In this document: in pieces, positions 806-20,288 of the stretch
Layout of the letters: every line of letters starts with the position of its first letter
How positions within the stretch are numbered: position 1 is the stretch's first letter
IMG/VR virus record: IMGVR_UViG_3300025598_000232
Location: 1 to 20,288 of that record
Reading direction: 5' to 3' (one strand)
Source of the DNA: a virus
DNA: 20,288 bases
Made by a program: the position numbers and the translations under genes
Notes under the pieces: generated by a model
Told to the model about the DNA's origin: nothing
The model's database searches: none
Seen by the model: the letters and a program-made list of their open reading frames with translations, nothing else

Positions 806-1006
806 ATGTTCGTCAATATGGAACTGAAGTGCTCTATTAAGTTTGTGTGAAAACTTTTCAGGTGTAATACCTGCTTTTTCTTGCAAAGCAATCTCTGCTT
901 TAAGAGCTTTCAAAAATCCTTCTGATAAATTAAAGTTTTTAGGGTAGAACATGCGCTGTTCTTTTTTAATCATACCATAAGATTCCATTAATTCGAAAAA
1001 CGTCAT
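782..1006 (-). CDS. Small hypothetical protein, 74 aa
   Basis: This 74-residue soluble, charged protein has two probable helices, around residues 1-20 and 27-64, and no recognisable domain. I do not recognise the family. The ATG at 1006 is supported by a perfect T4-type late core TATAAATA exactly 5 nt upstream, with no Shine-Dalgarno sequence. Its last seven residues (K-K-T-P-A-P-K) are encoded by the stem-loop of the terminator of the converging barrel-like gene, so that part of the sequence is constrained by RNA structure. It stands alone on the minus strand, separate from the structural block, and faces the 164-aa gene divergently. Confidence 0.7.
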   Translation of the reverse strand: MTFFELMESYGMIKKEQRMFYPKNFNLSEGFLKALKAEIALQEKAGITPEKFSHKLNRALQFHIDEHKKTPAPK

Positions 1007-1011
1007 ATTAG

Positions 1012-1019
1012 TATTTATA
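1012..1019 (-). promoter_or_regulatory. T4-type late promoter core TATAAATA
   Basis: The minus strand reads GTATAAATAC-TAAT-ATG, a perfect match to the T4 late-promoter octamer, with 5 nt between its last A and the ATG at 1006. By T4 geometry (octamer about -13 to -6) transcription would start at the A of the ATG, giving a leaderless mRNA. The motif is seen directly; its activity and the start point are inferred. Confidence 0.75.
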
Positions 1020-1040
1020 CTTACCTTATGAATATACCCT

Positions 1041-1070
1041 GTATAAACATGAAAAATCCAATGTTTATAC
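1041..1070. repeat. Perfect 10-bp inverted repeat in divergent intergenic region
   Basis: GTATAAACAT and its exact complement ATGTTTATAC are separated by 10 nt (GAAAAATCCA). The repeat lies midway between the divergent genes starting at 1006 (minus) and 1122 (plus). It could be an operator for a dimeric regulator, or a pair of outward-facing late-promoter variants, since each arm holds TATAAACA, close to TATAAATA. No T run follows either arm, so a terminator is unlikely. Confidence 0.65.
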
Positions 1071-1087
1071 TTGATTAAGTAGAAATA

Positions 1088-1096
1088 TGGTATAAC
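1088..1096 (+). promoter_or_regulatory. Possible extended -10 promoter for the 164-aa gene
   Basis: TGGTATAAC matches the extended -10 form TGnTATAAT with one mismatch, 25 nt before the ATG at 1122. The only -35-like hexamer, TTGATT at 1071-1076, is spaced 14 nt away, which is too close for a standard sigma-70 promoter. This would suit an early or middle gene read by the host polymerase. It is a weak call. Confidence 0.35.
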
Positions 1097-1121
1097 ATAG
1101 TACCTGTAACCAATATAAACT

Positions 1122-1616
1122 ATGTCTAAGGAAGAATACGTAAAATTACAGGCTGTTATTGCAGCTTTACAAAAAACTGTAGAAGATCAAGAAAAGATCG
1201 ATGAAATCCTCGATCTATTAAGCAATGCTACTGTAGCTGTTGATGAAGCAGCTAAATCAGAAGAAGAAGCAATTGACCCTTCTGAAGAAACAGGTAACGA
1301 TGAAGAAGGCGAACCAAAGCCAAAGCAACAATTCGTTATGCTTGTATCTGATACTACCGGCATTATTACTAAAGACTTGGTAGGTTGGGTATTACAGATT
1401 CCAGAGGATGATGATGTAGTTACTGTTATTGACTCTATCAAGAATGGTGCTTACAACTTTAACGCTTCTAAGAAAGGCCAAAAGTATCCAGTATCGTCTA
1501 TTGGTCAAGCAATTGCTAACGTACCAAATAAGTTCTTTAAGACTAATAATCTAAAGATTAAGACAAAAGAGCCTGTACAGATTATTACTACTAATAACGT
1601 ATTACCGAGGTCTTAA
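1122..1616 (+). CDS. Acidic hypothetical protein with coiled-coil N-terminus, 164 aa
   Basis: I do not recognise the family. Residues 1-45 are heptad-like and probably helical or coiled coil. Residues 40-65 are a Glu/Asp-rich, probably disordered linker ending in a Lys-Pro hinge. Residues 69-164 look like a small globular domain (start K-Q-Q-F-V-M-L-V-S-D, core G-W-V-L-Q-I-P-E-D-D-D) with a more basic C-terminal half. The start is the only reasonable ATG; no clear Shine-Dalgarno precedes it. The gene is transcribed against the tail block, and its stop overlaps the spike gene's stop by 4 nt at TTAA (1613-1616). The layout of helical N-terminus, acidic linker and compact C-terminus would suit a scaffold or adaptor, but no function is assigned. 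Confidence 0.75.
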   Translation: MSKEEYVKLQAVIAALQKTVEDQEKIDEILDLLSNATVAVDEAAKSEEEAIDPSEETGNDEEGEPKPKQQFVMLVSDTTGIITKDLVGWVLQIPEDDDVVTVIDSIKNGAYNFNASKKGQKYPVSSIGQAIANVPNKFFKTNNLKIKTKEPVQIITTNNVLPRS

Positions 1617-3820: not shown

Positions 3821-3821
3821 A

Positions 3822-5042
3822 TTATGTAGGATATTTCATTGTGTTTATATTTAATACAGAAGAATTACCGGTATTGCTGATATTGCCACTATTAATTACC
3901 ACTGCACTATTATTAGTTAATGAAGATAGTGTGCTTTCAGATTGCTGAGTTAGAGCAGATGTAACTCCATTTTGAGTAACAATCTTATTAAGGTTTTGTA
4001 CATCTGCAGTGCTTTTAATAGATAATGTTGTAGCCGCTACTGTACCAACTGTAGCTGTTATGTTACCAACGCTACTTGCAATAGTATTTGTTGCAGCTAA
4101 AGCACCTTGAGCAGTGCTTACTACTGATTTAGCAAGTGTACTTGCAGCTTGTATATTACCGATAACATTACTTACCGCAGGCATATCAGGTACATATGCA
4201 CCTACTAATTTGCTTATAGATGGTAAGGTAACTTTAGGAATTAAATTCTGTACCTTTATCATAGCATCAGACAATAAACGACCTGGTGCTTTTATAATGT
4301 TATTAGTTTTATCTACAATTGAAGATAAGCCCTCTATGTTATAGGTATGAGACCAGCTAGAAGGTACTACTAAGTTACCGGTAATATGAGTAGAGAATGG
4401 TAATTTGTTCTTCAACGCTCCAACATCACTTGTAATAGTGCTCTGTAACGAACCAGCTATACCCTTTATAGCGTTAACTTGTTGTAAGAATGTACCCTTT
4501 AAAGGTCCAAAATTAGCTGGGGTATAGCCATTGAAATTAGTTTGTATACTAGAATTTAACCCTTTCATAACACTTAACAACCGGTTTGGTATTTTATGAG
4601 ATATGCTCGGACTTACAGCGTCGTTACCATATGTAGGATCGGTAGGATCATCTGTCTCTGGAGCATATGTAAGTGTACCTACTGAATCAGAAAAATCTTG
4701 ATACACTCCAGGCGAATCTAACTTAAGCTGTGATGTAACTGATGGATGAGAGTAAAACATCGCATTATCCCACCACCCGTTAAACCACTGAGGGTCAAGT
4801 GCAGATAAAGATTTGTTTATAGAAAAAACCGGATTAGGTGCATATACAGCTAAGCACGGATCGTTTAAATGATTGAATAAATCTATTTTCGAACCTATAG
4901 GGTTAGATGAAAAACCTGTACTATAATCTGCTTTAGCTATACCTTGTTCACTTTCATAACCTAATGCAGTATAACCAGGTAGTAGTATTTTACTACTATA
5001 GTAGTCAAATGTTTGTATTACCTGTGTTGCACTTAAAGCCAT
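3822..5042 (-). CDS. Uncharacterised baseplate-region protein, 406 aa
   Basis: I do not recognise this protein. The first 120 residues are rich in aromatics (W-F-N-G-W-W around residue 87) and Pro, suggesting a compact domain. The middle (about 150-290) has amphipathic helices, and the last 110 residues are Ala/Ser/Thr/Asn-rich with low complexity and repeated short helical stretches (A-L-A-A-T-N-T, T-V-G-T-V-A-A-T). It has no signal peptide or strong membrane segment. It lies between hub (gp27-like) and spike (gp5-like) genes and probably shares a transcript with the spike gene, so a hub- or spike-associated role is the contextual guess. A late-promoter element GCTTAAATA lies exactly 5 nt before its ATG and overlaps the stop of the hub gene. 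Confidence 0.8.
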   Translation of the reverse strand: MALSATQVIQTFDYYSSKILLPGYTALGYESEQGIAKADYSTGFSSNPIGSKIDLFNHLNDPCLAVYAPNPVFSINKSLSALDPQWFNGWWDNAMFYSHPSVTSQLKLDSPGVYQDFSDSVGTLTYAPETDDPTDPTYGNDAVSPSISHKIPNRLLSVMKGLNSSIQTNFNGYTPANFGPLKGTFLQQVNAIKGIAGSLQSTITSDVGALKNKLPFSTHITGNLVVPSSWSHTYNIEGLSSIVDKTNNIIKAPGRLLSDAMIKVQNLIPKVTLPSISKLVGAYVPDMPAVSNVIGNIQAASTLAKSVVSTAQGALAATNTIASSVGNITATVGTVAATTLSIKSTADVQNLNKIVTQNGVTSALTQQSESTLSSLTNNSAVVINSGNISNTGNSSVLNINTMKYPT

Positions 5043-5047
5043 ATGTT

Positions 5048-5055
5048 TATTTAAG
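5048..5055 (-). promoter_or_regulatory. Late promoter core CTTAAATA
   Basis: The minus strand reads GCTTAAATA-AACAT-ATG, with 5 nt between core and start codon. The TAA inside the core is also the stop codon of the hub gene (5051-5053), so one sequence ends a gene and probably begins a transcript. The same nine bases GCTTAAATA precede the gene starting at 8301. Confidence 0.65.
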
Positions 5056-7015: not shown

Positions 7016-7017
7016 GT

Positions 7018-8301
7018 TTAATAGTTGCCTGTTGATTGCCCGTTTACGTTTATTTTGCTAGAATTGTTATAAGAGTTATAGAATAAGTTACGTGTATTTG
7101 ATAGTAAACTCCTTAACGTCATTGTAACTTTATAAGCTTCTGGAATCATTTTAACATTGTCATCAACAATTGTTACCATGTCTCCGGTGTTCATATTAAT
7201 TAAACGTGTAGTGCCTTCGTTAGTTACTTTTAAAGAGGTCATCGCTGCTATAGGGAAGCGTTTATAACCAGGTACGTCTACCTCGTACACACACGGAGGA
7301 TCTAATAAGTTTATACTTCTTCTATTAGGTAAGTTTTGATAAGTTAAAGACCATAAGAAATTCCAATTATTTCTAATATCATTTATGTCTTCTGTGTTAA
7401 ACAAGTAAAATGTTATATTAATCTCGTCTCCGTCATCTGCTGGTGTGAACACTTTAATCTTTTCTACACCTTGACCTGGACTGCCTAGTGCAAATTCTAA
7501 TTGAGATACAGCTTGGGCAGCTCCAATTGAGCCTTTAATAAACTCTGCAAATTGTCCTGCAGCTTTACCGCCTTTCTTACCACCACCTAAACCAGAGCTT
7601 ATTGCTTCTGATAAACCTTGCCCGCCTAACTGCTTTATGTTTTGCATAGTTTTATCAGTATCAGCGTTTTTCCAAGTACTATTAATACTTGTCATGTTAT
7701 CAATATTTAAATATGGAAGTTCGTATATTAACCCAGTCGGTTTGGAAGGATAAAGGTTATAATAAGGTTGTAGATACTCTAGATGAGTAATTGTACTTGC
7801 TCCTTCTTGTATTGCTTTTGCTAAACCAACATCTGCAGCAACCCCGACTGCTGTACCTACTAGTCTTCCAGCTAATGGAGCAAATGCACCGTATTTGGTT
7901 CTAGAAAGTGCTGCATTAGTTATATCACCTGCTTTTTGACCAATATAATTAGAAGCAGGTATTAAGCCTACTTGTACACCTAATGACGACTCTGTAGTAG
8001 CCATTAACTGCAATTTTAATGATCCTAATTGACCGGATTGAGTTAATTTGTATTCAGTAAGAGTTACTCTCGGTACAAAACCTCTTACTTCTTTATTTGT
8101 GTTTAAAGTCCATCTATAATCACTATGTACTTTGTAAATAAACGGATTGCTAGGATTTCCTAATACAGGTGCACCACCATTATTTTGCGTATAACTTAAA
8201 CCTAAAACTGAAGCAACTCCATTAATTTCTTGTCCTGTTTTTGCTGGCAACGAAATAGGTGCAATCTTTGAATTAGTAACTGGAAGTGGAATAGTTGCCA
8301 T
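7018..8301 (-). CDS. Baseplate-tail tube junction protein, gp48/gp54-like
   Basis: The 427-residue protein has a split beta domain like the tube-initiator proteins that cap the hub. An N-terminal part (about 50-110) with strands around R-W-T-L-N-T-N-K-E-V-R-G is followed by a Gly/Ala-rich helical insertion (about 120-270, including G-G-G-K-K-G-G-K-A-A-G-Q). The C-terminal part (about 285-415) contains D-E-I-N-I-T-F-Y-L-F-N-T and ends in I-P-E-A-Y-K-V-T-M-T-L-R-S-L-L, a motif I associate with gp48/gp54-type proteins of T4-like phages. T4 gp48 and gp54 are about 364 and 320 residues. Only one such gene is in this window. It sits between tape measure and gp53, and has its own late-promoter element 5 nt before the ATG. 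Confidence 0.5.
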   Translation of the reverse strand: MATIPLPVTNSKIAPISLPAKTGQEINGVASVLGLSYTQNNGGAPVLGNPSNPFIYKVHSDYRWTLNTNKEVRGFVPRVTLTEYKLTQSGQLGSLKLQLMATTESSLGVQVGLIPASNYIGQKAGDITNAALSRTKYGAFAPLAGRLVGTAVGVAADVGLAKAIQEGASTITHLEYLQPYYNLYPSKPTGLIYELPYLNIDNMTSINSTWKNADTDKTMQNIKQLGGQGLSEAISSGLGGGKKGGKAAGQFAEFIKGSIGAAQAVSQLEFALGSPGQGVEKIKVFTPADDGDEINITFYLFNTEDINDIRNNWNFLWSLTYQNLPNRRSINLLDPPCVYEVDVPGYKRFPIAAMTSLKVTNEGTTRLINMNTGDMVTIVDDNVKMIPEAYKVTMTLRSLLSNTRNLFYNSYNNSSKINVNGQSTGNY

Positions 8302-8306: not shown

Positions 8307-8314
8307 TATTTAAG
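8307..8314 (-). promoter_or_regulatory. Late promoter core CTTAAATA
   Basis: The minus strand reads GCTTAAATA-TTAAT-ATG, with 5 nt between core and the ATG at 8301. The TAA in the core is also the stop codon of the tape-measure gene (8310-8312). It matches the element before the 406-aa gene in sequence, spacing and overlap with a stop codon. Confidence 0.65.
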
Positions 8315-10016
8315 CTAAGGCTCTAAAGCGAGTGAGTCTTGCATCGGTTTTATTACGGGATGAGTTTATTTCCTCTCCAGCCCCGGCTCGGATATTATAC
8401 ACTGTTGATCCGCTAGAATTGCTAGACACGTTACTATTAACAGATGCACCGTCGATAGATTGATTAGCTATTGTTTCTTTTAAAGCGTTTATACTATCTT
8501 CAAGACCTGATGTATCAGAACCTTCCTCAGATTCCTCAGGCTCAGGGCTAGGGGTAGTAGCTATAGCTGCTGTAGGGCCAGTAGGTTCTGGTGTAATTTC
8601 AGGAACTACTGGTGATTTAAACTCTATCTTAGGAGTTCCTGTTGGAGCTGTAGCAGGTTCTTTTAAAGCTGATTCTCCTTGTACAGGAGGAAGAGGTGTA
8701 GTAGCGTCTTTGCTTTCAGGAGTTATTTCAGGACTTGTCTCTGCCCCAGTACTTCCTTCTGGATGAGTTGCTTTGTATACATCTCTACCAGCTAAAGCCG
8801 CATCAATTGCAATAGAACCAGCTGTACCTAAACCAGGTATCATACTTAAAGCTCCAGAAGCTAGCTCTCCACTAGCTCCAAGCCAGTCACCAGCAAACGC
8901 TCTTTGAGCAGCAAATACTCCACCAGCAGCTAGCCCTATTAGAGGTATTTTTTTAAGTAACGATTTACCAAGAGTCTTTTCACCTGCTTTAACTGCAGCT
9001 TTCTCTAAAGCCTTTTCGCCAGCTTTTTCACCGGCTTTTTCTATCGCTTTTTCGCCTGCTTTCTCGACTACCTTTTCGCCAGCTTTTTCTACAGCCTTTT
9101 CGCCAGCTTTTTCAGCTGTCTTTTCAACTGCTTTACCTGAACCTTTTAATCCTTGTACTGCTTGTTTAATATCTGCTACTAAACCCATGAAACCACCGCC
9201 AGTAGCCCCGGCATCTTGAGCTTCTTCATTCTTTTTTAAGCCAGCATTTTCAAATACTTTATTAAATAGCTCTTCTAATTTATCTAATACCTTTTTGTTA
9301 ACGTCGTAAAGTTCTATTTTTAATGGTTTAGCACCAGCAGGGGTTTTCTTCTTTTTACCTGTATCAGGTTCCGGTACTGGCTTTAAAGCTTCAGTTATTG
9401 CACCGGTAGCACTTTGAGATTGTTCTTTTTCAGCTTCAGGTACTTTTGCCACATTACCAACTACTGGAGCAGGTACCGCTGTTGTTTCTTCAACTTCAGC
9501 TTGAACCTTTTCCTCTTTTTTAGCCTTTCTTTTAGCTCTAGCTTTTTTTCTTTTCTCTTTTTCTTCAGCAGCTTTTTGAGCTTCATATGCTTCAGCTTCT
9601 TCAGGATTATCAGCTTTAAGTTGTTTTAGTTCTCTTTGTTTTCTTATTTCTTGATAAGCCTTGTTAGTCTCTCCGCCCAATAAAGTATTTCCTAAACCTG
9701 ATTTACTGCGTTCATTGTATTTTCTTTCAATTCCTTTTAAAGCTTTTTCATAATCAGACAATACTTTTGCAGACTCTCCTGCTTTTGTTTCTGTTTTCTG
9801 CTCAGATCTCTCTTCTAATACTTTTACAAGCTTTTCTACTTGCTTAGATAAAGTCTCTATGTTTTCACCAGTCTTATTGAAGGTTGTTAAGGATTGCTTT
9901 ATTTTATCTAAATTATCATCCAGTTTTACATTAAGCTCTTTAGTAAGTCCAGGATTCAAGGAAGCACTTGGCGTCTGTACTTGTTCCTCTTCTGTATTGT
10001 AACCGGTTGTTGACAC
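8310..10016 (-). CDS. 29: Tape-measure-like tail protein
   Basis: This 568-residue protein has the architecture of a tape measure and nearly the length of T4 gp29 (about 590), implying a tail near 85 nm at 1.5 angstrom per residue. Residues about 25-75 are coiled coil. Residues 85-180 are highly charged helix with a Lys/Arg block (K-R-K-K-A-R-A-K-R-K-A-K-K). Residues about 294-347 are a four-residue EKAx repeat, and 354-415 hold a hydrophobic Gly/Ala-rich segment (I-P-L-I-G-L-A-A-G-G-V) that could enter the host membrane. Residues about 420-500 are Pro/Glu/Thr-rich and probably disordered. The start is GTG at 10016; the next in-frame Met is near residue 275, too late. TAAGTA lies 5 nt before the GTG. 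It sits after the assembly-protein pair, as tape measures usually do. Another elongated virion protein is the alternative. Confidence 0.6.
   Translation of the reverse strand: MSTTGYNTEEEQVQTPSASLNPGLTKELNVKLDDNLDKIKQSLTTFNKTGENIETLSKQVEKLVKVLEERSEQKTETKAGESAKVLSDYEKALKGIERKYNERSKSGLGNTLLGGETNKAYQEIRKQRELKQLKADNPEEAEAYEAQKAAEEKEKRKKARAKRKAKKEEKVQAEVEETTAVPAPVVGNVAKVPEAEKEQSQSATGAITEALKPVPEPDTGKKKKTPAGAKPLKIELYDVNKKVLDKLEELFNKVFENAGLKKNEEAQDAGATGGGFMGLVADIKQAVQGLKGSGKAVEKTAEKAGEKAVEKAGEKVVEKAGEKAIEKAGEKAGEKALEKAAVKAGEKTLGKSLLKKIPLIGLAAGGVFAAQRAFAGDWLGASGELASGALSMIPGLGTAGSIAIDAALAGRDVYKATHPEGSTGAETSPEITPESKDATTPLPPVQGESALKEPATAPTGTPKIEFKSPVVPEITPEPTGPTAAIATTPSPEPEESEEGSDTSGLEDSINALKETIANQSIDGASVNSNVSSNSSGSTVYNIRAGAGEEINSSRNKTDARLTRFRALA
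8973..9136 (-). repeat. Coding tandem repeat, EKAx tetrapeptides
   Basis: In the tape-measure-like gene roughly thirteen consecutive four-residue units of the form E-K-A-[G/V/I/L/A] are encoded by degenerate 12- and 24-bp repeats rich in GCTTTTTC/GCCTTTTCG on the plus strand. The units alternate largely between EKAG and EKA plus a branched residue, giving a long charged helix with a regular small or hydrophobic stripe. Third-position differences show that the copies are not recent exact duplicates. Confidence 0.8.
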
Positions 10017-10021: not shown

Positions 10022-10029
10022 TACTTAGC
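10022..10029 (-). promoter_or_regulatory. Degenerate late promoter core GCTAAGTA
   Basis: The minus strand reads GCTAAGTA-TTTTA-GTG, with the same 5-nt spacing as the perfect copies but with A-to-G in the TAAATA core. It is supported by spacing rather than by sequence and helps justify the GTG start at 10016. Confidence 0.4.
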
Positions 10030-10048: not shown

Positions 10049-10828
10049 TTACTTATCTAAGAAGAAATCCACCGCAATATCAATAGTTACAGTATCATTA
10101 TTATCTGTATCAATAGTTAATAAATCGCTTGTTATGATATTAATAGTTTTTGCATAGTTTTGCAATTCTAGCAATATTTCCGCTGGAAGATTTTCTATAA
10201 GAGTCAACCTATCTGTATATGTAAGTGCATTGTAGTTTAAACTAATCGGATCAGAACCCTCTATTACATAGATTTCTTTTATTAACTTACATGCTTCGTT
10301 CAGTATAGCTTGCTCAACAGCATTGTTATAGTCTACGTTTTTATCAACAGGCTCTTTTTCTCTTAACTCTTTTTCCATACCATATTGATCTACAATTAGA
10401 GGCACATGTATATCTACTTGTATGTTTTTCGTTATACAAGTCTTGCTTTCAGGTATTTGTAGAGTTTTTGCATATTCTAAAGAAGAATCAAAAGAAACAG
10501 CCCAATCTACATCATCTTTATGTACTATAATATTCGAACCTAAAGTGTTTTTTCTTAAAGCCAGTAATATAACTAAACGATCAATTATAGTGAGACTGTC
10601 AATTATATCAGGCTCTGTGCAGCTCTCCTTAATAACATTATACGTAGTTATTATAAACCGTGTATTATAGATAATATTATCAACCAAACATGTATAAAAG
10701 GACTGCTGTTGCTTAGTAGTAATTGGTTTAAACTTCACATCTCTTTTCAGAGAGGGTATGTACACATCGAATGTATTTTTTAATGTGTAAGAATTAAGTG
10801 TTGAAATAATATCGTTTATATTTGTCAT
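10049..10828 (-). CDS. Tail/baseplate assembly protein, gp26-like (T4_baseplate family)
   Basis: This 259-residue protein resembles the T4 gp26-type baseplate hub assembly family. It has a short N-terminal helix, then Y-I-P-S-L-K-R-D-V-K-F-K-P-I-T-T-K-Q-Q-Q (about 23-43), a helical part ending D-R-L-V-I-L-L-A-L-R-K (about 86-96), a beta-rich middle, and a second helical part with D-R-L-T-L-I-E-N-L-P (about 204-213). The upstream gene product has the same sequence of landmarks, so the two are tandem paralogues. The frame is open upstream to a TTG, but ATG at 10828 is preferred: it follows the upstream stop by 1 nt (TAA-C-ATG). Position immediately before the tape measure fits a chaperone role. 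Function is inferred from family resemblance and order. Confidence 0.6.
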   Translation of the reverse strand: MTNINDIISTLNSYTLKNTFDVYIPSLKRDVKFKPITTKQQQSFYTCLVDNIIYNTRFIITTYNVIKESCTEPDIIDSLTIIDRLVILLALRKNTLGSNIIVHKDDVDWAVSFDSSLEYAKTLQIPESKTCITKNIQVDIHVPLIVDQYGMEKELREKEPVDKNVDYNNAVEQAILNEACKLIKEIYVIEGSDPISLNYNALTYTDRLTLIENLPAEILLELQNYAKTINIITSDLLTIDTDNNDTVTIDIAVDFFLDK

Positions 10829-10829: not shown

Positions 10830-11747
10830 TTAAAAACCAAGTTCAGAGTTTAGAGAGCCGCTTGCAGGTAAGTTCAAACCACCTGTATCATTTTTATTCT
10901 CAGATGTTTTTTCGTTATCCTGTGCATAGTACATCCAGTATACTTGCATTTCAACTGGTGTAATAGTGTCAATATATTCTGGTGAAAACCCTGCATACCT
11001 TACCATATTATAAAAAGCTCTGTATATGTTATTAAGATTTTCAGTAAAATTGTATTCTATGAGCTTTTGCATAGACTGACATGTAATATTTTTTGACATT
11101 CTCAGTACAGGCTCTTTGTTGGCAGGATTAACTATTACAAGCAAATCTTCTTCTTCGTACTTTTCTTCAATTGTTAGTATATTTTGATATACCTGATTAC
11201 ATAAGGCATGGGGTAATGAATACACTATTTGCAATCTGTTTTCTAATGTGAAATCCTTGAATATAACGGTTTCGTTGTTTATTTTTATAGAATCTATGTA
11301 TGAAGCTAAAACAACAAATATATCATTGTTATTACTAAGGAAAACGTGCTCGTCTCGTGCTTTATAAGACGAAAAACTAACACTAATACCGTTCCATTCT
11401 AAAGTGCTGGATTTATTAATAGCCTTAATTAATTGTAGTAATGTTTCAACAGTAGTAGTATAGGTGAATGTATTATTACCAGGCAAGGTACATTTAAGAT
11501 TTAAATCCGGACTAACGCAATAGTTACGTACTGTTAATAATAGAGATAGCTTGTCTTCAAATGTAATATCTTTATCTAAAATATCTGAGCATAGATCTTG
11601 TAGTATAGAATTATACTGTTGTATTGTTTCTTTCTTGTCAGTATTGTATAAGCTCTTAACAAGCTCTCTATATTGCTTATAATAGAGCTCTTTTATCTGT
11701 ACCTCAGCTTGCAAGCTAGGTAGATAGGCATTTAACTTGAAAGGCAT
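10830..11747 (-). CDS. Tail/baseplate assembly protein, paralogue with C-terminal extension (gp26/gp51-like)
   Basis: The 305-residue protein shares landmarks with the next gene product: Y-L-P-S-L-Q-A-E-V-Q-I-K near the N-terminus, Q-Y-N-S-I-L-Q-D-L-C, D-K-L-S-L-L-L-T-V-R near residue 70, and later N-R-L-Q-I-V-Y-S-L-P. It then adds about 80 residues: a helical domain (M-Q-K-L-I-E-Y-N-F, Y-N-M-V-R-Y-A-G-F-S-P, V-E-M-Q-V-Y-W-M-Y-Y) and a disordered tail. That helical domain resembles the C-terminal part of tail-assembly proteins that recruit tube or hub subunits, which is an inference. The ATG is 3 nt after the preceding stop (TAA-GGC-ATG), with AAGG overlapping that stop. A TTTTTAA run at its own stop gives a possible +1 slip into the next gene. 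Confidence 0.6.
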   Translation of the reverse strand: MPFKLNAYLPSLQAEVQIKELYYKQYRELVKSLYNTDKKETIQQYNSILQDLCSDILDKDITFEDKLSLLLTVRNYCVSPDLNLKCTLPGNNTFTYTTTVETLLQLIKAINKSSTLEWNGISVSFSSYKARDEHVFLSNNNDIFVVLASYIDSIKINNETVIFKDFTLENRLQIVYSLPHALCNQVYQNILTIEEKYEEEDLLVIVNPANKEPVLRMSKNITCQSMQKLIEYNFTENLNNIYRAFYNMVRYAGFSPEYIDTITPVEMQVYWMYYAQDNEKTSENKNDTGGLNLPASGSLNSELGF

Positions 11748-12402: not shown

Positions 12403-13116
12403 TTACTTACCTCTTATAGATCTACCTGCATAGCGTATAGCATTAGCAGCATTACCAACTCCACGCGCAATATTGGTTACTTGATTGAGAGCACCTAGTA
12501 GTGTTAGTCCTCCTCCAGCTGAACCATTACTCTGGTTATAAGCTATTTGACTATCACTTTGATATGTTACGTCCCAGCGTTGATAGCCTAACGTTACTTT
12601 AAATTCTTGTACTTTACCGGTTCCAGCTAGATCATAGCTTATACCAGGTGCATTAACTACGAACAAACCAGTTAATTTGTATTGTACTAACTTTTCTAAG
12701 TTATCATCTACAATATCAAGAGTAGCATAACTGCTATCGTCTGGTACAGGGTTAGCATTATAACGTCTAGTAGGATTACCATTTACAGCTCTTACATCAA
12801 CGTTAGAAGCCACTTCTTCTAGTCTTTCCTCAAACCACCTCTTTAAATAAAGTACTTGATCGGTGTAGAATGTTAATTCCCATTGTTTGCTATCACCGAA
12901 GTCTCTGGTACCAGTTGAATGTACTTCTGCACCAAAATACCTTACTGAAGCAATAGCTGCCTTTTTATTAGGTATAGAAACGTTTTTAATATATACTAGA
13001 TCTTCTTCAGTTAAAGAACTACCATTTATTACTAATGAAGAAACCCTGGCTTGGAAATCTCTTGAAAATCCGCGCTGGGTTGCTGTCGAATAGAATAAGG
13101 ATAGATCTTGGGACAT
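12403..13116 (-). CDS. Tail tube-like protein (gp19 fold) with C-terminal tail, 237 aa
   Basis: Residues 1-185 align by landmarks with the tail tube gene product: M-S-Q-D...F-Y-x-T-A-x-x-R-x-F-x-R-D, E-E-D-L-V-Y-I-K-N-V-S-I-P, W-E-L-T-F-Y-T-D, a helix before R-R, the strand Y-K-L-T-G-L-F-V, Y-D-L-A-G-T-G and the final Q-E-F-K-V-T-L-G-Y-Q-R-W. An extra C-terminal tail of about 50 residues ends in a 34-residue basic, probably helical block (L-T-L-L-G-A-L-N ... R-S-I-R-G-K) shared with the next paralogue. It is 237 residues against 163 for T4 gp19. It may form a specialised ring at an end of the tube or in the baseplate. A late core AATAAATA lies 5 nt before its ATG, so it probably heads its own transcript. 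Confidence 0.7.
   Translation of the reverse strand: MSQDLSLFYSTATQRGFSRDFQARVSSLVINGSSLTEEDLVYIKNVSIPNKKAAIASVRYFGAEVHSTGTRDFGDSKQWELTFYTDQVLYLKRWFEERLEEVASNVDVRAVNGNPTRRYNANPVPDDSSYATLDIVDDNLEKLVQYKLTGLFVVNAPGISYDLAGTGKVQEFKVTLGYQRWDVTYQSDSQIAYNQSNGSAGGGLTLLGALNQVTNIARGVGNAANAIRYAGRSIRGK
12406..12520. repeat. Copy 1 of shared C-terminal coding block
   Basis: This segment encodes the final 34-residue block of the 237-aa tube-like protein. It aligns without gaps to 13146-13260, the end of the next tube-like gene. At protein level 27 of 34 residues match, although the rest of the two proteins is strongly diverged. Confidence 0.75.
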
Positions 13117-13121: not shown

Positions 13122-13129
13122 TATTTATT
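13122..13129 (-). promoter_or_regulatory. Late promoter core AATAAATA
   Basis: The minus strand reads CAATAAATA-TTAAT-ATG, with 5 nt to the ATG at 13116. This is one mismatch from TATAAATA. It lies in the 26-nt gap between the two tube-like paralogues. Confidence 0.65.
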
Positions 13130-13142: not shown

Positions 13143-13937
13143 TTATTTACCTCTTATAGACCTACTAGCATAGCGTAGAGCATTAGCAGTATTGCCTACT
13201 CCACGTGCTACTTTAGTTATAGAATTCAAAGCCCCTAATAATGTTAAACCAGGTTTAGCAGGGTTTAAACCGCTTGTACCGTTTGCTGCAGCTTTATTGA
13301 ATTTATCGGTTTTTTTAGTATAAGAAACCATATCTGGGGTTTCAAACGAGTCATCCATTTCAAAGTACTGATATGCAAACGTTACTTTAAACTTTGCTAC
13401 TTCTGTACCTGCATCTGAAATATTATAAGCTATAGGTTCTATATATGTAGGGAATAGACCGTATAAAGTATATACTTTTGATATAAGCAAGGATTGAGAA
13501 GCGCCTTCATTGCTACCTGCTACATATGCATCTGCTAATAAATTGAGCTTTAAGTTTGTCTTTGCGAAGTCGATATCTGAAGTCGAATTAGTGCTATTAT
13601 CGTAAAGCACCTTACTCCAAACTTCAAACAATGATCTTAATATATTGTAATTGTCTGATATAAACTCAACACTCCAATTTTCATTATCAGAGTATACTAC
13701 ATTAGTCGGTACTACAAATTCAAATGCCTTATAAGGTACTTTTGCTATGCTTATTTTACGAGTAGGAACACTAGCTGATTGTACGTATAAATTATAATCT
13801 TCAAAGTTATCCACATAAGTCTGAACATCGGTAGGTAACGGAGATATACTCTCTACTTGAAAGTTATATTTTTTATTAAAACCGTATTCTAAAGCGGTTT
13901 TATAAAATTGATTTACTTCAGGCCGTGTTTGTGGCAT
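13143..13937 (-). CDS. Tail tube-like protein (gp19 fold) with C-terminal tail, 264 aa
   Basis: The tube landmarks are an N-terminal F-Y-K-T-A-L-E-Y-G-F-N-K-K-Y-N-F-Q-V-E-S, Q-S-A-S-V-P-T-R-K-I, W-S-V-E-F-I-S-D-N-Y, Y-T-L-Y-G-L-F-P-T-Y-I, Y-N-I-S-D-A-G-T and K-F-K-V-T-F-A-Y-Q-Y-F. After the core comes a linker of about 40 residues and the same C-terminal basic block as the neighbouring paralogue, ending R-S-I-R-G-K. The core is clearly more diverged from that neighbour than the tail is. Role as for the neighbour: probably a minor ring in tube or baseplate. It lies just after the strong terminator that follows the tube gene and has a weak TTAAGTA element 5 nt before its ATG, so it is probably transcribed separately at a lower level than the tube. 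Confidence 0.7.
   Translation of the reverse strand: MPQTRPEVNQFYKTALEYGFNKKYNFQVESISPLPTDVQTYVDNFEDYNLYVQSASVPTRKISIAKVPYKAFEFVVPTNVVYSDNENWSVEFISDNYNILRSLFEVWSKVLYDNSTNSTSDIDFAKTNLKLNLLADAYVAGSNEGASQSLLISKVYTLYGLFPTYIEPIAYNISDAGTEVAKFKVTFAYQYFEMDDSFETPDMVSYTKKTDKFNKAAANGTSGLNPAKPGLTLLGALNSITKVARGVGNTANALRYASRSIRGK
13146..13260. repeat. Copy 2 of shared C-terminal coding block
   Basis: This is the counterpart of 12406-12520, offset by 740 bp. Several runs, such as CATAGCGTA and GCATTAGCAG, are identical, and most differences in between are conservative at protein level. Confidence 0.75.
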
Positions 13938-13942
13938 AATAA

Positions 13943-13950
13943 TACTTAAG
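13943..13950 (-). promoter_or_regulatory. Degenerate late promoter core CTTAAGTA
   Basis: The minus strand reads CTTAAGTA-TTATT-ATG, with 5 nt to the ATG at 13937. The core has A-to-G relative to TTAAATA. It lies directly downstream of the terminator at 13962-13989, where a new promoter is needed. Confidence 0.45.
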
Positions 13951-13961
13951 GCTAATATAAC

Positions 13962-13989: not shown

Positions 13990-14012
13990 GTAATATAATT
14001 ATATACTAAATC

Positions 14013-14534
14013 TTATTCGTGTCTCCAATAGTGATAAGCTAATGCAGCAGTAAAGGATAAAGGTGCACCTGTACCAGCTACGTTATAATCAACAGTTCCG
14101 AGCTTCTGGATATATGCTCCGTAAAGCTTGTATGTATTGAGAACATTTAATTTGTCATCAATAAGATTGAGCTGAATGATAGATTCAGTACCTCTTACAG
14201 ACAAGTCTCCTGTACTAGAAGCATCATCGAATACTTGATTGATCTGCCAATCTTCAAGCTTTTTACGAATAATACCACCCTTATCGTTACGGAATGTTAC
14301 GTTCCAAGCATTGCTACCTGGATACTTTACAGTGCCAGGGAAGTTGAAATCTAATCCCATATACGTAGCAGTTTGATTAGTGATGTCTCTTGAAGGTAGT
14401 TGAGTTGTTGTAATATAAACGAAATCATCTTCGTTTAATGTATCGTTACCTAAAGATACAACACGTAGCATATAATCTCTTGCGAAATCTCTTTGCTGTG
14501 CTACGCGAAAGAAGTCTTGTATAGTTTGTGACAT
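14013..14534 (-). CDS. 19: Major tail tube protein, gp19
   Basis: This 173-residue protein is close to T4 gp19 (163) in length and shows its order of elements: an N-terminal helix F-F-R-V-A-Q-Q-R-D-F-A-R-D, I-T-T-T-Q-L-P-S-R-D-I, M-G-L-D-F-N-F-P-G-T, W-N-V-T-F-R-N-D, a helix K-L-E-D-W-Q, the strand Y-K-L-Y-G-A-Y-I-Q-K-L-G and the final L-S-F-T-A-A-L-A-Y-H-Y-W. Stacked hexameric rings of this protein form the inner tube for DNA. It is the most compact of the tube-fold proteins here, directly follows the sheath gene as in T4, and has both a good late core (CATAAATA, 6 nt before the ATG) and a strong terminator, all fitting the major tube subunit. Confidence 0.85.
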   Translation of the reverse strand: MSQTIQDFFRVAQQRDFARDYMLRVVSLGNDTLNEDDFVYITTTQLPSRDITNQTATYMGLDFNFPGTVKYPGSNAWNVTFRNDKGGIIRKKLEDWQINQVFDDASSTGDLSVRGTESIIQLNLIDDKLNVLNTYKLYGAYIQKLGTVDYNVAGTGAPLSFTAALAYHYWRHE

Positions 14535-14540
14535 ATTAAA

Positions 14541-14548
14541 TATTTATG
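14541..14548 (-). promoter_or_regulatory. Late promoter core CATAAATA
   Basis: The minus strand reads CATAAATA-TTTAAT-ATG, one mismatch from the T4 octamer and 6 nt from the ATG at 14534. It lies in the 20-nt gap between sheath and tube genes and would give the tube its own mRNA with about 1 nt of leader. Confidence 0.7.
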
Positions 14549-14554
14549 TTAAGG

Positions 14555-16939
14555 TTATTGTAATAACTCGTTGAAGTTTTGAGATGTCTTAGTAGCATAG
14601 AAGTTTACTAAGATAAACTCTGCTGTACGAACTGGCTTAATGTAGATATCTACAACTAGCGAGTTATCATCTACAACACTTGGTGTGTTATTAGTATTGT
14701 TACATACGATTAAGTAGTCGTATAAACCTTGTGTATTCTTTGCTAAGTCGAATACTGGCTTAATTGTATTAACTAAGCGGTTCTGTGTAAATGTCGTGTT
14801 AGGTTCAAATACGAAGAACTTTGTAGTATTGAGTACTGACTTTTCTAAGAACAAGAATAAACGACGTACATTAATACGATCAAATGCGCTTGGAGCTTGT
14901 AATAATGTCTTTTGACCGTAGATCGTGAACCCTTCATTTGGGAAGTTTACTACTGGGTTAACAGCAATCTTATAAAGTAAGTCGCGTTGTTTCTGTTGTG
15001 GGTTGATTGCAATATCTGTAATACCAGTTATTGCACCACGATTTAAACCAGCAGGTGCACCCCAAGGATAAGCTACTGCATCGTTAGCTGCAAATGCTGC
15101 TGCAGCATATGCTGAGAATGGCACCCAGATTGGTTGACTTGTAAACTGGTCAACTAGCTGTACCCAGTTACCATAAGTTGCAGCATAACTCGAGTTAATA
15201 CCGCTATAAAGGTTGTTTAATGGCCAGTAAATGGCTTGTGAGAAGTTAAGACTCTTATTGGTTAATGTCTTATAATTTGCACCTTGTACAAATACACTAC
15301 GTAATGGGTCTGAAATAAACAAGCAATCTTTACGTACATTTGTTGTAAATTGTACGAATTGTTGTGTTACTTGATTCCAAGTTGAAAGAATATTTGTTGA
15401 ATCATTACCAAATGCAAATGTACCGTCAGAAGTTGTTAGGTAGTTGTTTGCGCTCTGTATTTGAGAGTTGAATAACGAACTTTCAAATATACCAGTTGTG
15501 TTTACTGTAGATAACGAGTAAGCAGCAATCGTTGAAAGACCTGCATCAGCTACAACATCGATGTTATATACATCAGCGTTAGCAGCAAGATTTAATGCAG
15601 TTTGTAATTTACCTGTAACATTACCAATAACTTTATTAGTTGTTGTGTTTAAGGAAGGTGAATATACACCTAATGGGTATAGATTATCTGCAGCAAAGTA
15701 GCCTGTTGCACCACCAGATAGTGATGAAGTAGCACTATAAATTGACTGCGTGATAATTCTTACACTCTTAACTGCATTACCGTTAGCATCTAACCAAGCA
15801 GTGTTGTTTGAAATGTTTGGATTTACAAGAACGGAAATGTTAGCTGATTTATTATTAACTACGTTTTGTACGAAGTCATTTTGAGGAGCACCACCGTTTA
15901 CGTCTTGTATTGTTCTGTTAGAGTAGAACGAAGTAGCATAACCTTCTGCAAGGTTATAAGTTAATTGATATGGGTTAGTACCAAATGGAGATGTTCTGAC
16001 TTTGAATACTGAAAGAATACCTAAGTCGTTGAAACCACCATTACCAAATACTGAAATATCATACTGTGGAATGTTTTCAATTACTTGTGAAATACTACCA
16101 GAATTGTCTGTATAAACTGAACTTAATTGGAAGCTTCCTGCATAACGAGTAGCAGGTACTGTTGTATAAGTTGCAGCTGCACCTAAACCGTTATCTTGTG
16201 CAATACTATAAAGATTGTTTGCAGCAGTGAAGTTTGTATTTGGGTTTAAGTTAGTGTTATCAGCTAAGTTAACGTAAAGACCTTCAAACTTTTCATTGAT
16301 TGTTGTTTGAGCTTCGTTAATAACTACCATACCGATACCAGGTAAGTTTAAGCTTGAAAGAGCGTTAATAGCACTTAAACCTGAACCGTTATATGCACCA
16401 ACTGTTGACCAACTTACACCGTTTTGTTTTAATGAATTGTAATCACTTTGACTTAATTCAATAAGTGTTGGTTGTGCAAAGAAGTATGTGCTTGCTGTCG
16501 AAAGAGCTTGTGCTGAAGCTGCTGGAGCTGCTAAAGCTGTATTAATTGCAGAAGCCTGTAAAGCTAAAGTAGATAGTGCTGTTGTTCCTAAACTTGCAGC
16601 AATAACTGGGTAAACTAATGCTGTATATACGTTGGAGTTATAACCATTACCTAAACCAGTACCATAAGGTAAACGATAAACACTTACTTGTGCGTTTGTA
16701 CCTGAACTAAAAACTTGCTGTACGGAATAATAAAGATAGCGTTCTGCAGCATTTGTTGGCGTACCAAATATGTTTGCGAAGTCTTGATTAGTCGTAATAT
16801 TAATGATTTCGGAAGCAGGTCCTTGTGCAGCAAATCCTGCCATAAATATGCTCGTTCCGTTTGGCGTATTAGCTGTTGTGCTGATATCGATTTCATTAAT
16901 CTGTACTCCTGGTGATTGGATTTGACGTAAAGTAGCCAT
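14555..16939 (-). CDS. 18: Contractile tail sheath protein, gp18
   Basis: This 794-residue protein forms the contractile sheath around the tube. The N-terminus has the family's S-P-G-V-Q-I-N-E-I-D-I-S, then A-G-F-A-A-Q-G-P and F-A-N-I-F-G-T-P-T, the conserved inner-domain start. The C-terminal 140 residues are close to T4 gp18: F-D-R-I-N-V-R-R-L-F-L-F-L, F-V-F-E-P-N-T-T-F-T, Y-D-Y-L-I-V-C-N-N-T-N-N-T-P-S-V and I-K-P-V-R-T-A-E-F-I-L-V-N-F. T4 gp18 is 659 residues; the extra length lies in the Ser/Thr/Asn/Ala-rich middle (about 120-560), where the surface protrusion domains are inserted. The gene has a late core 16 nt before its ATG and is followed by the tube gene, the T4 18-19 order. Many Arg codons are CGT, which fits high expression. 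Confidence 0.95.
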   Translation of the reverse strand: MATLRQIQSPGVQINEIDISTTANTPNGTSIFMAGFAAQGPASEIINITTNQDFANIFGTPTNAAERYLYYSVQQVFSSGTNAQVSVYRLPYGTGLGNGYNSNVYTALVYPVIAASLGTTALSTLALQASAINTALAAPAASAQALSTASTYFFAQPTLIELSQSDYNSLKQNGVSWSTVGAYNGSGLSAINALSSLNLPGIGMVVINEAQTTINEKFEGLYVNLADNTNLNPNTNFTAANNLYSIAQDNGLGAAATYTTVPATRYAGSFQLSSVYTDNSGSISQVIENIPQYDISVFGNGGFNDLGILSVFKVRTSPFGTNPYQLTYNLAEGYATSFYSNRTIQDVNGGAPQNDFVQNVVNNKSANISVLVNPNISNNTAWLDANGNAVKSVRIITQSIYSATSSLSGGATGYFAADNLYPLGVYSPSLNTTTNKVIGNVTGKLQTALNLAANADVYNIDVVADAGLSTIAAYSLSTVNTTGIFESSLFNSQIQSANNYLTTSDGTFAFGNDSTNILSTWNQVTQQFVQFTTNVRKDCLFISDPLRSVFVQGANYKTLTNKSLNFSQAIYWPLNNLYSGINSSYAATYGNWVQLVDQFTSQPIWVPFSAYAAAAFAANDAVAYPWGAPAGLNRGAITGITDIAINPQQKQRDLLYKIAVNPVVNFPNEGFTIYGQKTLLQAPSAFDRINVRRLFLFLEKSVLNTTKFFVFEPNTTFTQNRLVNTIKPVFDLAKNTQGLYDYLIVCNNTNNTPSVVDDNSLVVDIYIKPVRTAEFILVNFYATKTSQNFNELLQ

Positions 16940-16955
16940 AGTAGTATTATACTAT

Positions 16956-16963
16956 TATTTAGG
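16956..16963 (-). promoter_or_regulatory. Late promoter core CCTAAATA upstream of sheath
   Basis: The minus strand reads CCTAAATA followed by 16 nt and ATG, so the inferred mRNA has about an 11-nt leader. That is longer than at other heads and still lacks a Shine-Dalgarno sequence. The leader contains GTATAATAC, whose TATAAT would be a sigma-70 -10, but I find no matching -35. Confidence 0.5.
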
Positions 16964-16989
16964 CAATTTCGAAATGAAACCTCAACAAA

Positions 16990-17610
16990 TTAAAGTAATT
17001 CTGCAATTACCTGGCTGAATGAGAATGTAAAAGAAGACTCCAACTGCTCAGCATCTCTATAGTTATAGGTTATTCCAGTTAACTTAGTTATAAATGCTTT
17101 AGTATAATTCCATTGGATTTTTCTATTGTTGTATTCATCCAACCCATACACTGTTATAGTCGTCTGATACGGCTGTAAATTGGTATTAGTAGTGTATTGA
17201 GTTAAACCTGAAGTATTATTAAAGCCAAACTGAGTTAAATTGTCAGGATCAAGAGTACTTGTTTGTACACCGTTTATATAATCTAACCATTTCCAAAGCA
17301 CCCACCAGTTATTGAATCCGTTATCTACCGTAAAATTAACCGTTACATCTTCGTATTTTTCACGTTTACCGGTAGTTAGATTTAAAGACTGACCTGCATA
17401 AGGTAAGTTAGTTCCTAAAATATTAGTACTCGGTACAACAGTACCATAGACTGAATACTGCAAAGAGTCTAATACAACATTATTAGTATTTCTATCAACA
17501 GTACTGAACGTGTTTATTTTTTTAAGAGGATCAGGTAAATTCAATACTAATACGAATTTATCTTTTCTACTCTTATTAAGAATAGACTGTTGATTAATAA
17601 CGTCGCTCAT
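16990..17610 (-). CDS. Tube-fold virion protein upstream of sheath, 206 aa
   Basis: This protein shows tube-like order: D-K-F-V-L-V-L-N-L-P, S-L-Q-Y-S-V-Y-G-T-V-V-P-S, L-P-Y-A-G-Q-S-L-N-L-T-T-G, a strand Y-E-D-V-T-V-N-F-T-V-D, a Trp-rich helix F-N-N-W-W-V-L-W-K-W-L-D-Y-I, and closing strands Q-T-T-I-T-V-Y-G-L, K-L-T-G-I-T-Y-N-Y and F-T-F-S-F-S-Q-V. This matches the gp19 pattern in which a strand with D/N precedes a W-x-D/W helix. The C-terminus (Q-V-I-A-E-L-L) differs from the tube. Placed before the sheath, it may be a tail completion or terminator ring rather than the tube itself. The ATG follows the 474-aa gene's stop by 2 nt, indicating coupled translation. Confidence 0.5.
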   Translation of the reverse strand: MSDVINQQSILNKSRKDKFVLVLNLPDPLKKINTFSTVDRNTNNVVLDSLQYSVYGTVVPSTNILGTNLPYAGQSLNLTTGKREKYEDVTVNFTVDNGFNNWWVLWKWLDYINGVQTSTLDPDNLTQFGFNNTSGLTQYTTNTNLQPYQTTITVYGLDEYNNRKIQWNYTKAFITKLTGITYNYRDAEQLESSFTFSFSQVIAELL

Positions 17611-17612
17611 TT

Positions 17613-19037
17613 TTAATCAAAACGTTTTAATGCTTTTTCAAAAATACTACTAAACCCGTTATTTTCTGCATAATAACTTCTAGTGCGAGGTTTAGTTTCT
17701 ATACCGCTTGTACGAGTAACTATATTAGGCAGGTTTGGTTCTACTGTAGGAATTACTTTTGAAACTTCAGGTGGGGCTATAATTTTAGTATAATTATTCA
17801 CATACCCCTGAGATTCTTTTTCAGTAGGTATTTTTGCATATGCGTACAATTTACCGTCAATATTACCAATATTAATAGTAGTACTACTACCCTGTCTCTT
17901 AATTTCAAAGTTGCTTGTTTGAGCATCTTTATCCGATAAAGTATTCACTAAATTCTTAAACCGCACTCTTTCACTTATGTCTAATATCGATAAGAATTTT
18001 ATTGTTAATTCAATTTCTTTACGTTCTGCATCACTCATTTCGGTTTCTTCTTCTTTGAAGAACTCGGGCTGGTCCGCTTGTTGTTGAATTGTTTTAAGGT
18101 GTAAAGGCATAAAGAAATGATCTAAGCTTGCCTTTTTAAACTTGTTCGGTCTATTGGTTGTGTTAATACCGTTTCTCTTTGCAATCTCTAAATTATCGTT
18201 TTCATTATTTCTTAATAAGCTAATGAGCAGCGGCATTTCTGATATTTTAATAACCAGCTCAGGTATTGGCGCAATAGACGAGAATACTAACCATTGATTT
18301 TGAGAATAAAATAAAGTTACACTATCAGTACCAGCAGGGTTACTAATAATAATTTTTTGATCTGGAACTGGAGTTGGGTTATCAAGTAGCTTCTGTAGTT
18401 GTGCAAGCTTGTCTTCTTCTGGTATTAATTCTTTAAACGCTGCAGCTGCATCTTTTCTGTTTAACGTCCAGACCTTTCTATCTTTAAATATACCAGACTT
18501 TCCTCGAGCGTTAATTGCATCAATTAACTTACTAACATCAAATACGACAATAGAGATATCTCTTTCTGATCTCTTTTGATCTGTTTTGTAAGCACTCCAG
18601 ACACCATTTATATTAGCAATAGTTACAGACTGGTCTTTAGTAGATGTAGTAATCAATATTGCTTCGTCTGCTTCTAAATCTCTTTTTACTGTGTTAGTAA
18701 TTTGACTTAATATATTTTGTGGAATCAAACTTCCATTAATACTTGTTAAAGGTAGTATGCCGTTTTCCTGAGCTTCTATAGTTTTAAGTAAAGCAGCAAG
18801 ATTAGGAACAACAAATTCTTTTTTAACATCTCTTTCAATTTTTCCACCACCCATACGTGTCACTAAGCGAGTCGCAAAACTAGGATTCTCTATATCTTTA
18901 ATTGCTTTTTGTTGCAATGCGTTTACACCACTAGCAATAGCATTTTTAGTCTTTTGCCACCGTCCAGGCTGAGCTGAAGCTGCTGGTGTTGTAGTGTCAG
19001 ATGTTGCTTCGAAAAATGTTATAAAGTTATCAGCCAT
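17613..19037 (-). CDS. Uncharacterised 474-aa protein with three internal beta motifs
   Basis: I do not recognise this protein. Its N-terminus M-A-D-N-F-I-T-F-F-E-A resembles the capsid-targeting peptide of T4 internal head proteins (M-K-T-Y-Q-E-F-I-A-E-A), which the prohead protease cuts after Glu. A similar short beta pattern recurs three times: about residues 126-150 (Q-S-V-T-I-A-N-I-N-G-V-W-S-A-Y), 228-255 (D-S-V-T-L-F-Y-S-Q-N-Q-W-L-V-F) and 376-400 (T-T-I-N-I-G-N-I-D-G-K-L-Y-A-Y). Helical segments lie between them. The C-terminus (F-E-K-A-L-K-R-F-D) is amphipathic. The ATG lies 4 nt after the nucleotidyltransferase stop and no good Shine-Dalgarno is present. It is probably a late virion or packaged protein, by context only. 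Confidence 0.75.
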   Translation of the reverse strand: MADNFITFFEATSDTTTPAASAQPGRWQKTKNAIASGVNALQQKAIKDIENPSFATRLVTRMGGGKIERDVKKEFVVPNLAALLKTIEAQENGILPLTSINGSLIPQNILSQITNTVKRDLEADEAILITTSTKDQSVTIANINGVWSAYKTDQKRSERDISIVVFDVSKLIDAINARGKSGIFKDRKVWTLNRKDAAAAFKELIPEEDKLAQLQKLLDNPTPVPDQKIIISNPAGTDSVTLFYSQNQWLVFSSIAPIPELVIKISEMPLLISLLRNNENDNLEIAKRNGINTTNRPNKFKKASLDHFFMPLHLKTIQQQADQPEFFKEEETEMSDAERKEIELTIKFLSILDISERVRFKNLVNTLSDKDAQTSNFEIKRQGSSTTINIGNIDGKLYAYAKIPTEKESQGYVNNYTKIIAPPEVSKVIPTVEPNLPNIVTRTSGIETKPRTRSYYAENNGFSSIFEKALKRFD

Positions 19038-19041
19038 CGTA

Positions 19042-20094
19042 TTACTTACTTAAATAGTACTGTCTTGCAGCTGGGTCATAGCCAATAGATATACCACTCG
19101 TGCTTAATCCGCGTGGTTCTTTATTAACTTTATCCATATTAAGGTTATAAAATCTAGCTATAGCGTGAGCTGTTTGTACTGGTAAATACGTTCTACCGGT
19201 AGTTTTCTTTTTAAGATTCTCTATTTCATGGAATGGGGTTTCCATATCAGTATGCACTTTGGCTACTAGTTTAGCAGACTTACCATCCGATTTAACTAGT
19301 TTACTAACACCTGCATCAAGCTTTTGATGATGAGGTCCTCTGCTACCTTTACCGGTTCCGCCCATACCCGGTAAACCCATAAACGATTTAAATGTTTCTT
19401 GACTGAGAGAAAGCTCTTTATCTATTTTGTCGTTTACGCCTTTTATTAAACGTTCAACGTCTCCTGAACGTCTTAATTCTTTAAATGCTAAGTTCTCCAA
19501 TGAAAATTCACCAGATTTTTCTAACCCGGCTTGTCTTGCTTTTAAAATCTTTTCTTTTACTGTTTCTGCACACTCTAAATCGCATTTTTCACTTAATGCA
19601 TAGTCAATTAGCTCTTTCCAGGATTGTACCTTAGCTAATAATACTTTCTTATCAATAGGTGCATGTTTAGTAGGTTTAACTAACCATTCATCGTGTTTAA
19701 TTGAATATACACCGGTAGAGTGGTGAGGTTCTGTCTTGTCTTGTATATATGTCTCAACATCATAACCTTTTATTTTAATATTGTGAGAACTATTCCATAC
19801 AGACTTTTTAGCTTTAAAATAATCTTTAAGCAAGTCTTTATCAATTTTGTAGTCGTCAAAATCAGTAATAATGTGTAGATCTATATCACTATATTCAGTA
19901 TAGTTATAATTTGCTAAAGAACCTGTAAAAGTTATATCTTCTACATCAACGGATATCTCAATAAACTCTAAAAATGCTTCTGCGACTTCCAAAAGCTTTT
20001 CTTTAATTTCAGGCTTAAGTTTATTATTCTCCCATATCAACGGATTGAGTTCATCGTGATATTGAATAGTAAGCTTGTTTGCAGAAGTCGTCAT
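19042..20094 (-). CDS. Nucleotidyltransferase-fold protein, 350 aa
   Basis: The catalytic signature of the polymerase-beta nucleotidyltransferase superfamily is intact: G58-S59, then D70-x-D72 in Y-S-D-I-D-L-H-I, with a third acid (probably E114 in Y-D-V-E-T-Y-I-Q-D). The following P-H-H-S-T-G-V-Y-S-I is, to my recollection, typical of the version carried by T4-like marine phages. It would transfer a nucleotide from NTP to an unknown protein, RNA or small molecule. Residues about 180-350 are basic and unassigned, with G-L-P-G-M-G-G-T-G-K-G-S-R-G near residue 245 and a helical end. No partner antitoxin gene is adjacent, so a MNT/HEPN toxin-antitoxin pair is unlikely. It heads the structural block and shares a palindromic promoter with the divergent gene at 20115. 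Confidence 0.75.
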   Translation of the reverse strand: MTTSANKLTIQYHDELNPLIWENNKLKPEIKEKLLEVAEAFLEFIEISVDVEDITFTGSLANYNYTEYSDIDLHIITDFDDYKIDKDLLKDYFKAKKSVWNSSHNIKIKGYDVETYIQDKTEPHHSTGVYSIKHDEWLVKPTKHAPIDKKVLLAKVQSWKELIDYALSEKCDLECAETVKEKILKARQAGLEKSGEFSLENLAFKELRRSGDVERLIKGVNDKIDKELSLSQETFKSFMGLPGMGGTGKGSRGPHHQKLDAGVSKLVKSDGKSAKLVAKVHTDMETPFHEIENLKKKTTGRTYLPVQTAHAIARFYNLNMDKVNKEPRGLSTSGISIGYDPAARQYYLSK

Positions 20095-20098
20095 TTAA

Positions 20099-20112
20099 AG
20101 TAAATATTTACT
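20099..20112. promoter_or_regulatory. Palindromic bidirectional late promoter
   Basis: AGTAAATATTTACT is a perfect 14-bp palindrome, so a TAAATA core faces each way in overlapping positions. On the plus strand the core ends 8 nt before the ATG at 20115; on the minus strand it ends 10 nt before the ATG at 20094. The two divergent genes are separated by only 20 nt. The palindrome is seen directly; promoter use is inferred from the same core at other late genes. Confidence 0.6.
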
Positions 20113-20114
20113 AG

Positions 20115-20288
20115 ATGCAAGACTATCTCAAGCTATTCGAAGATATTGTTAATACTAATAATCCTGAGGTATATCAGGAGAAAGTGTTACGTGTAATAGA
20201 ACATCTTAAAAAGAAAGATAAGGTATTATTCTTAACTACTTCCAATCGCTGGGAAGGTGATAAAGAGAAACCAAAAAGCACGATATTA
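20115..20288 (+). CDS. Partial hypothetical protein, N-terminal 58 residues
   Basis: The reading frame starts at ATG 20115 and runs open to the window end. It begins M-Q-D-Y-L-K-L-F-E-D, which again resembles a T4-type capsid-targeting peptide (L7-F8-E9 fits the protease preference for L/I-x-E). A helix follows (about residues 18-33), then a hydrophobic strand K-V-L-F-L-T-T-S-N-R-W and a polar loop K-E-K-P-K-S-T. That strand-loop-helix start would fit a Rossmann or flavodoxin-like fold, but too little is visible to assign a family. Divergent transcription from the palindromic late promoter is likely. Confidence 0.65.
   Translation, partial: MQDYLKLFEDIVNTNNPEVYQEKVLRVIEHLKKKDKVLFLTTSNRWEGDKEKPKSTIL

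Follow-up and report, generated by a model that had tools for sequence, protein, structure and literature searches.

Why should the late promoter cores of a T4-like virus lie within a few nucleotides of the start codons that follow them? The question is raised by a virus contig of 20,288 bases (the window, analysed here over its whole length), which carries a T4-like tail and baseplate module encoding the tail sheath, four tail-tube-like proteins, and gp26- and gp5-type baseplate proteins. T4 late transcription, with gp55, gp33 and gp45 and the core TATAAATA, is the textbook system, and its mRNAs carry leaders and Shine-Dalgarno (SD) sites. Our analysis indicates that the window is very probably the tail/baseplate module of an uncultivated myovirus related to T4, in which the first genes of operons (the operon heads) would be transcribed into leaderless mRNA.

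The module genes lie on the minus strand. The tail sheath protein (gp18-like; 14555-16939), the product of a late structural gene, was assigned by tblastn and tree. Among the tail-tube-like proteins, all profile matches to phrog_45, those at 12403-13116, 13143-13937 and 14013-14534 are encoded by head genes, and that at 16990-17610 by a stop-coupled follower (gap 2). The gp26-type baseplate hub protein (PF12322, phrog_150; 10830-11747) and the gp5-type baseplate hub protein with its OB domain (PF04717; 1613-3820) are likewise stop-coupled followers, with gaps of 3 and 1, respectively. A further head gene, with a GTG start, encodes a long A/E/K-rich protein (8310-10016), and the phage endolysin/peptidase profile matches of this protein fall in its repetitive part. 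Against cultured phages, the window sheath showed less than 60% identity and no record reached 80% coverage; the best matches listed were 37-41% identical, over the C-terminal third only. As far as these sheath comparisons go, no cultured phage is close to the window.

At one end of the window, on the plus strand (3-743), sits a gene for a secreted porin-like protein. It is 97% identical over 226 aa to its homologue in the relative G001 (L091:4121-4798), whereas the other genes common to the window and G001 are only 42-77% identical, and further relatives (52-96% identity) occur on about 25 viral contigs. TAAATA stands 6 nt ahead of the ATG of the orthologues in G012 and G013. The porin-like gene is therefore probably one of the phage's late genes, and it has perhaps been exchanged between phages.

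The original prediction placed a late core exactly 5 nt before the start codon of six minus-strand genes, and all six are present in the sequence: TATAAATA (1012-1019; in full TATAAATA-CTAAT-ATG) before the ATG at 1006; TAAATA (5048-5053 and 8307-8312, each within TTAAATA) before the ATGs at 5042 and 8301; TAAGTA (10022-10027; CTAAGTA-TTTTA-GTG) before the GTG at 10016; TAAATA (13122-13127; ATAAATA) before the ATG at 13116; and TAAGTA (13943-13948; TTAAGTA) before the ATG at 13937. The longer spacings that it gave were also correct, namely 6 nt for the ATG at 14534 (TAAATA, 14541-14546, minus strand; predicted leader 1 nt) and 16 nt for the sheath ATG at 16939 (TAAATA, 16956-16961, minus strand). 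A divergent pair had been described as a longer-spaced variant, and so it is: the palindrome GTAAATATTTAC (20100-20111), with a late core on each strand, lies between divergent starts, at distances of 10 nt (ATG at 20094, minus strand) and 8 nt (ATG at 20115, plus strand). Being its own reverse complement, TAAATATTTA is a single site with a late core for two divergent genes. Palindromes of this type occur 15 times in ten relative contigs, four of them divergent, and similar divergent palindromes are found in G002, G003, G005 and G012.

To count these sites, starts were taken from a motif-blind gene caller, which was exact for 47 of 54 T4 starts. By these calls, TAARTA stands exactly 5 nt before the start in 7 of the 19 window genes and at 6 nt in one more; the excess of window cores at 5 nt has P 7e-12 against a Markov null. 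On the minus strand alone, the spacing of 5 nt was found at 7/17 starts and at 0/296 non-start ATGs (Fisher P 3.6e-10). The window followers begin 0-4 nt past the preceding stop, as had been claimed for the genes without a core. The claimed partition between heads and followers needs one correction: the gene at 19037 (gap 4), which had been counted as core-less, has TAAGTA 5 nt before its ATG (19043-19048, minus strand), within the end of the upstream coding sequence (LSK-stop). Either this gene breaks the partition or its core is there by chance.

Several of these sites can be followed in G013, a long relative contig syntenic with the window. The cores before 13937 and 14534 are both conserved there, and the orthologue of the gene at 8301 retains TTAAGTA at 5 nt. 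At two window sites (5048-5053 and 8307-8312) the upstream gene ends on the TAA of the core itself, and the stop codon, the promoter core and the next start are packed into 14 nt. The two modes can also switch between relatives: the gene at 3822-5042 is a head in the window and a follower in G013, and that at 10049-10828 is a follower in the window yet has GTAAGTA at 5 nt in G013.

Comparison with relatives and with other T4-like phages shows that the close-set core pattern marks an uncultivated T4-like clade. A count of TAAATA-N(d)-ATG, which needs no gene calls, has its peak in related viral contigs at d = 5-7, with 132, 84 and 36 occurrences over a background of about 15 per position; T4, Syn9 and Melnitz show no such peak. 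Measuring core-to-start distances genome-wide, as had been proposed, gave the same excess: across ten long relative contigs (77-149 kb; motif-blind starts), a core lies at 5-7 nt before 237/1076 ATG starts versus 103/32,033 other ATGs (odds ratio 88). In T4, Syn9, Melnitz, phiM9, XG4 and AG-345 together, 0/289 starts have a core at 5-7 nt, and in the leadered T4-like phages the cores are mostly 20-30 nt upstream of the start. A/T-richness alone was rejected as the cause, XG4 at 31% GC having 0/37. The Pelagibacter phage HTVC008M is mixed (4/44 with a core at 5-7 nt); it and three MAG contigs outside the clade (L119, L140, L141 and L152) have a few cores at this distance, and mixed or intermediate spacing may thus exist outside the clade.

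The sheath gene allows the trait to be placed on a tree. Its start codon is secure, because the N-terminus (MARTIQSPGV and variants) is conserved, and its core lies at 5-7 nt in 43/56 wider-clade orthologues; the 16-nt spacing, with its longer leader, is common to the window's near relatives. In the sheath tree, which was built by a quick method and has some long branches, locus counts class 35/38 rows in the window's clade as leaderless; on the other side 3 rows are leaderless and 26 leadered. The two 'leadered' members of the window's clade are fragments of only about 5 kb, each with a single core. The simplest reading is that leaderless heads arose once, a tentative one given the long branches.

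The T4 late factors were then sought in the relatives. A gp55 homologue (phrog_234), which the original prediction had proposed to look for, is encoded in 7 of the 18 relative contigs searched, several of which are fragments (G001, G002, G005, G010, G012, G015 and G018); the same search found none in the window fragment or in G013. The clamp-loader protein gp44 is present in the clade. The gp45 C-domain (PF09116) was found in 0/11 clade contigs by a search that did find HTVC008M and Syn9; PF02916 matched nowhere, the control genomes included, and is hence uninformative for gp45, and the gp33 profile PF16805 matched nowhere in a search without a positive control. Together with the excess at 5-7 nt, the gp55 homologues support the view that the core is a T4-type late promoter whose +1 is predicted to fall on the start codon or 1-2 nt ahead of it, and we infer gp55 to be its reader.

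The same A/T-rich motif at a fixed distance from the ATG could in principle belong to the start codon itself, as the Kozak-like A/T-rich start signal reported for Bacteroidetes does, and such a translation-start context would fit the spacing-5 class, of which 80% have T at -1. Gene class speaks against this reading. When genes of ten clade contigs were assigned to classes through their homologues among annotated T4-like genes or the window's structural genes, TAARTA was found at 5-10 nt in 70/92 late heads, about a quarter being without it, but in 0/37 early heads, and it was nearly absent from followers (2/60 late, 0/15 early). In place of the late core, 15/37 early heads carry a TATAAT-like hexamer at 5-8 nt. 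Among spaced genes without a late core in five clade contigs, such hexamers peak at 5-7 nt (53 vs 9.9 expected), and 30/52 of those have a TTG element at the position expected for a 16-nt hexamer spacer, i.e. TTG-N19-TATAAT. No ribosome signal would include a -35 element; these are therefore two promoter classes in one leaderless geometry. The late motif, furthermore, matches the gp55 -10 element, and among sheath orthologues it also stands at longer spacings. The TAARTA motif is thus a promoter, and the start-codon context, which we regard as highly improbable, was rejected on the early genes that lack it. The early host-type promoters look leaderless too, so that the geometry claimed for the late regulon is not peculiar to late genes. 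An additional feature of the early promoters of G001, G002, G003, G005 and G006 is a TA dinucleotide at 5 and 4 nt upstream of TATAAT (75% T, 71% A), an extra element besides TTG and TATAAT. As to where transcription would begin, the T4 late octamer spans -13 to -6 (PMC1524935), and the T4 late promoter lies about one helical turn upstream of the transcription start (PMC2988020). The first two octamer bases are weak in the clade. In leadered phages with spacings of 20-32, where no start codon is involved, the position core+6 is 78% purine (61% A, 17% G), and in the clade's spacing-7 class it is 88% A; this base composition points to a +1 at core+6. These positions are predicted from sequence, and some spacings reach 8-20 nt (16 at the window sheath gene, 8 and 10 at the palindromic pair, for predicted leaders of about 3-11 nt), so one may ask whether the polymerase initiates farther upstream, or at more than one site, and leaves short SD-less leaders on mRNAs that are not strictly leaderless. 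We think this unlikely, given that the start signature at core+6 is seen in leadered and leaderless phages alike, that most cores lie at 5-7 nt, and that early promoters have the same geometry.

A different account looks to the host, as did the original suggestion of a host that initiates without SD sites: if the host made no use of them, the phage could have lost its SD leaders without consequence. In its favour, SD-like 4-mers in the clade are rarer at heads (3.4%) than in the gene-body background (9.3%), the corresponding share of heads with SD-like sites being 72% in T4 and 79% in Melnitz. The followers speak against it. SD-like 4-mers reach 15.8% there and show a modest peak at the normal spacing of 6-8 nt (19, 15 and 13 vs about 4 per position), the same position as in T4-like controls, which suggests that the clade's ribosome probably does read SD sites. 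The suggestion is accordingly not supported, and we give it little credence; the heads lack SD sites presumably because they have no leader. What kind of host this would be was approached in three ways. Sheath alignment against genome contigs gave only 29-47% matches, scattered over unrelated MAGs; a porin profile run against two phyla (395 and 398 genomes) found nothing credible as host; and the phage tRNAs are too few to indicate one. The ribosomal protein bS21 is encoded in G003 (60388-60537, minus strand), as it is in HTVC008M; it was rejected as an explanation of the pattern, G003 being the only clade contig with bS21.

Leaderless heads thus remain the reading that we adopt, and they suggest the following mechanism. 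A gp55-type late sigma factor would recognise the A/T-rich TAAATA -10 element, and transcription would start 6 nt past the core. With spacing 5, the main class, this position is the A of the start codon; with spacings of 6-7 it falls 1-2 nt ahead of the start codon. Ribosomes would load directly onto the AUG at the 5' end. Operon-internal genes, whose starts lie between about -4 and +4 nt relative to the preceding stop, would be translated by termination-reinitiation, sometimes with a normal SD site. Early genes would use the same arrangement, with the host-type promoter TTG-N19-TATAAT placed 5-7 nt ahead of the ATG.

How does this compare with known systems? The clade shares with T4 the -10 core before late structural genes, a late class without a clear -35 element, and, in the relatives, a gp55-family sigma factor. 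It differs from T4, and from nearly all leadered T4-like phages compared, in that their cores are mostly 20-30 nt before the ATG with SD sites at many heads, whereas its own lie at 5-7 nt with none. The phage phiYS40 is not known to be T4-like, and its early mRNA is leadered. Most middle and late mRNAs of this Thermus phage are reported to have no leader (PMC3594737), a likeness to what is predicted for the clade; unlike phiYS40, the clade has a T4-type late core and early promoters that also look leaderless. In Deinococcus-Thermus, -10 elements only a few bp ahead of an ORF are common and give leaderless mRNA, beside classical promoters and ribosome-binding sites (PMC12340547). There the -10 element is similarly close to the ORF, but the genes are cellular and the sigma factor is the housekeeping one, whereas the clade also has a phage late sigma factor. 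These two are the closest precedents. A search of our literature library returned only phiYS40 and general remarks, and no account of a T4-like phage with leaderless late transcription, which, for a search of that library only, is weak evidence.

Taken together, we consider it more likely than not that leaderless heads arose by a single switch in a deep, uncultivated T4-like clade, with host-sigma promoters for early genes and gp55 promoters for late ones, that the clade keeps SD sites only inside operons, and that promoter position there replaces the ribosome-binding site for whole regulons. One practical consequence is that SD-dependent gene callers may misplace starts in such genomes. The signature itself (a core at 5-7 nt, heads without SD sites, followers with them) could predict leaderless use in uncultured viruses, and perhaps their hosts. 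A large clade in which a T4-type promoter has moved onto the start codon is, moreover, a natural comparison for the co-evolution of promoter position and translation initiation.
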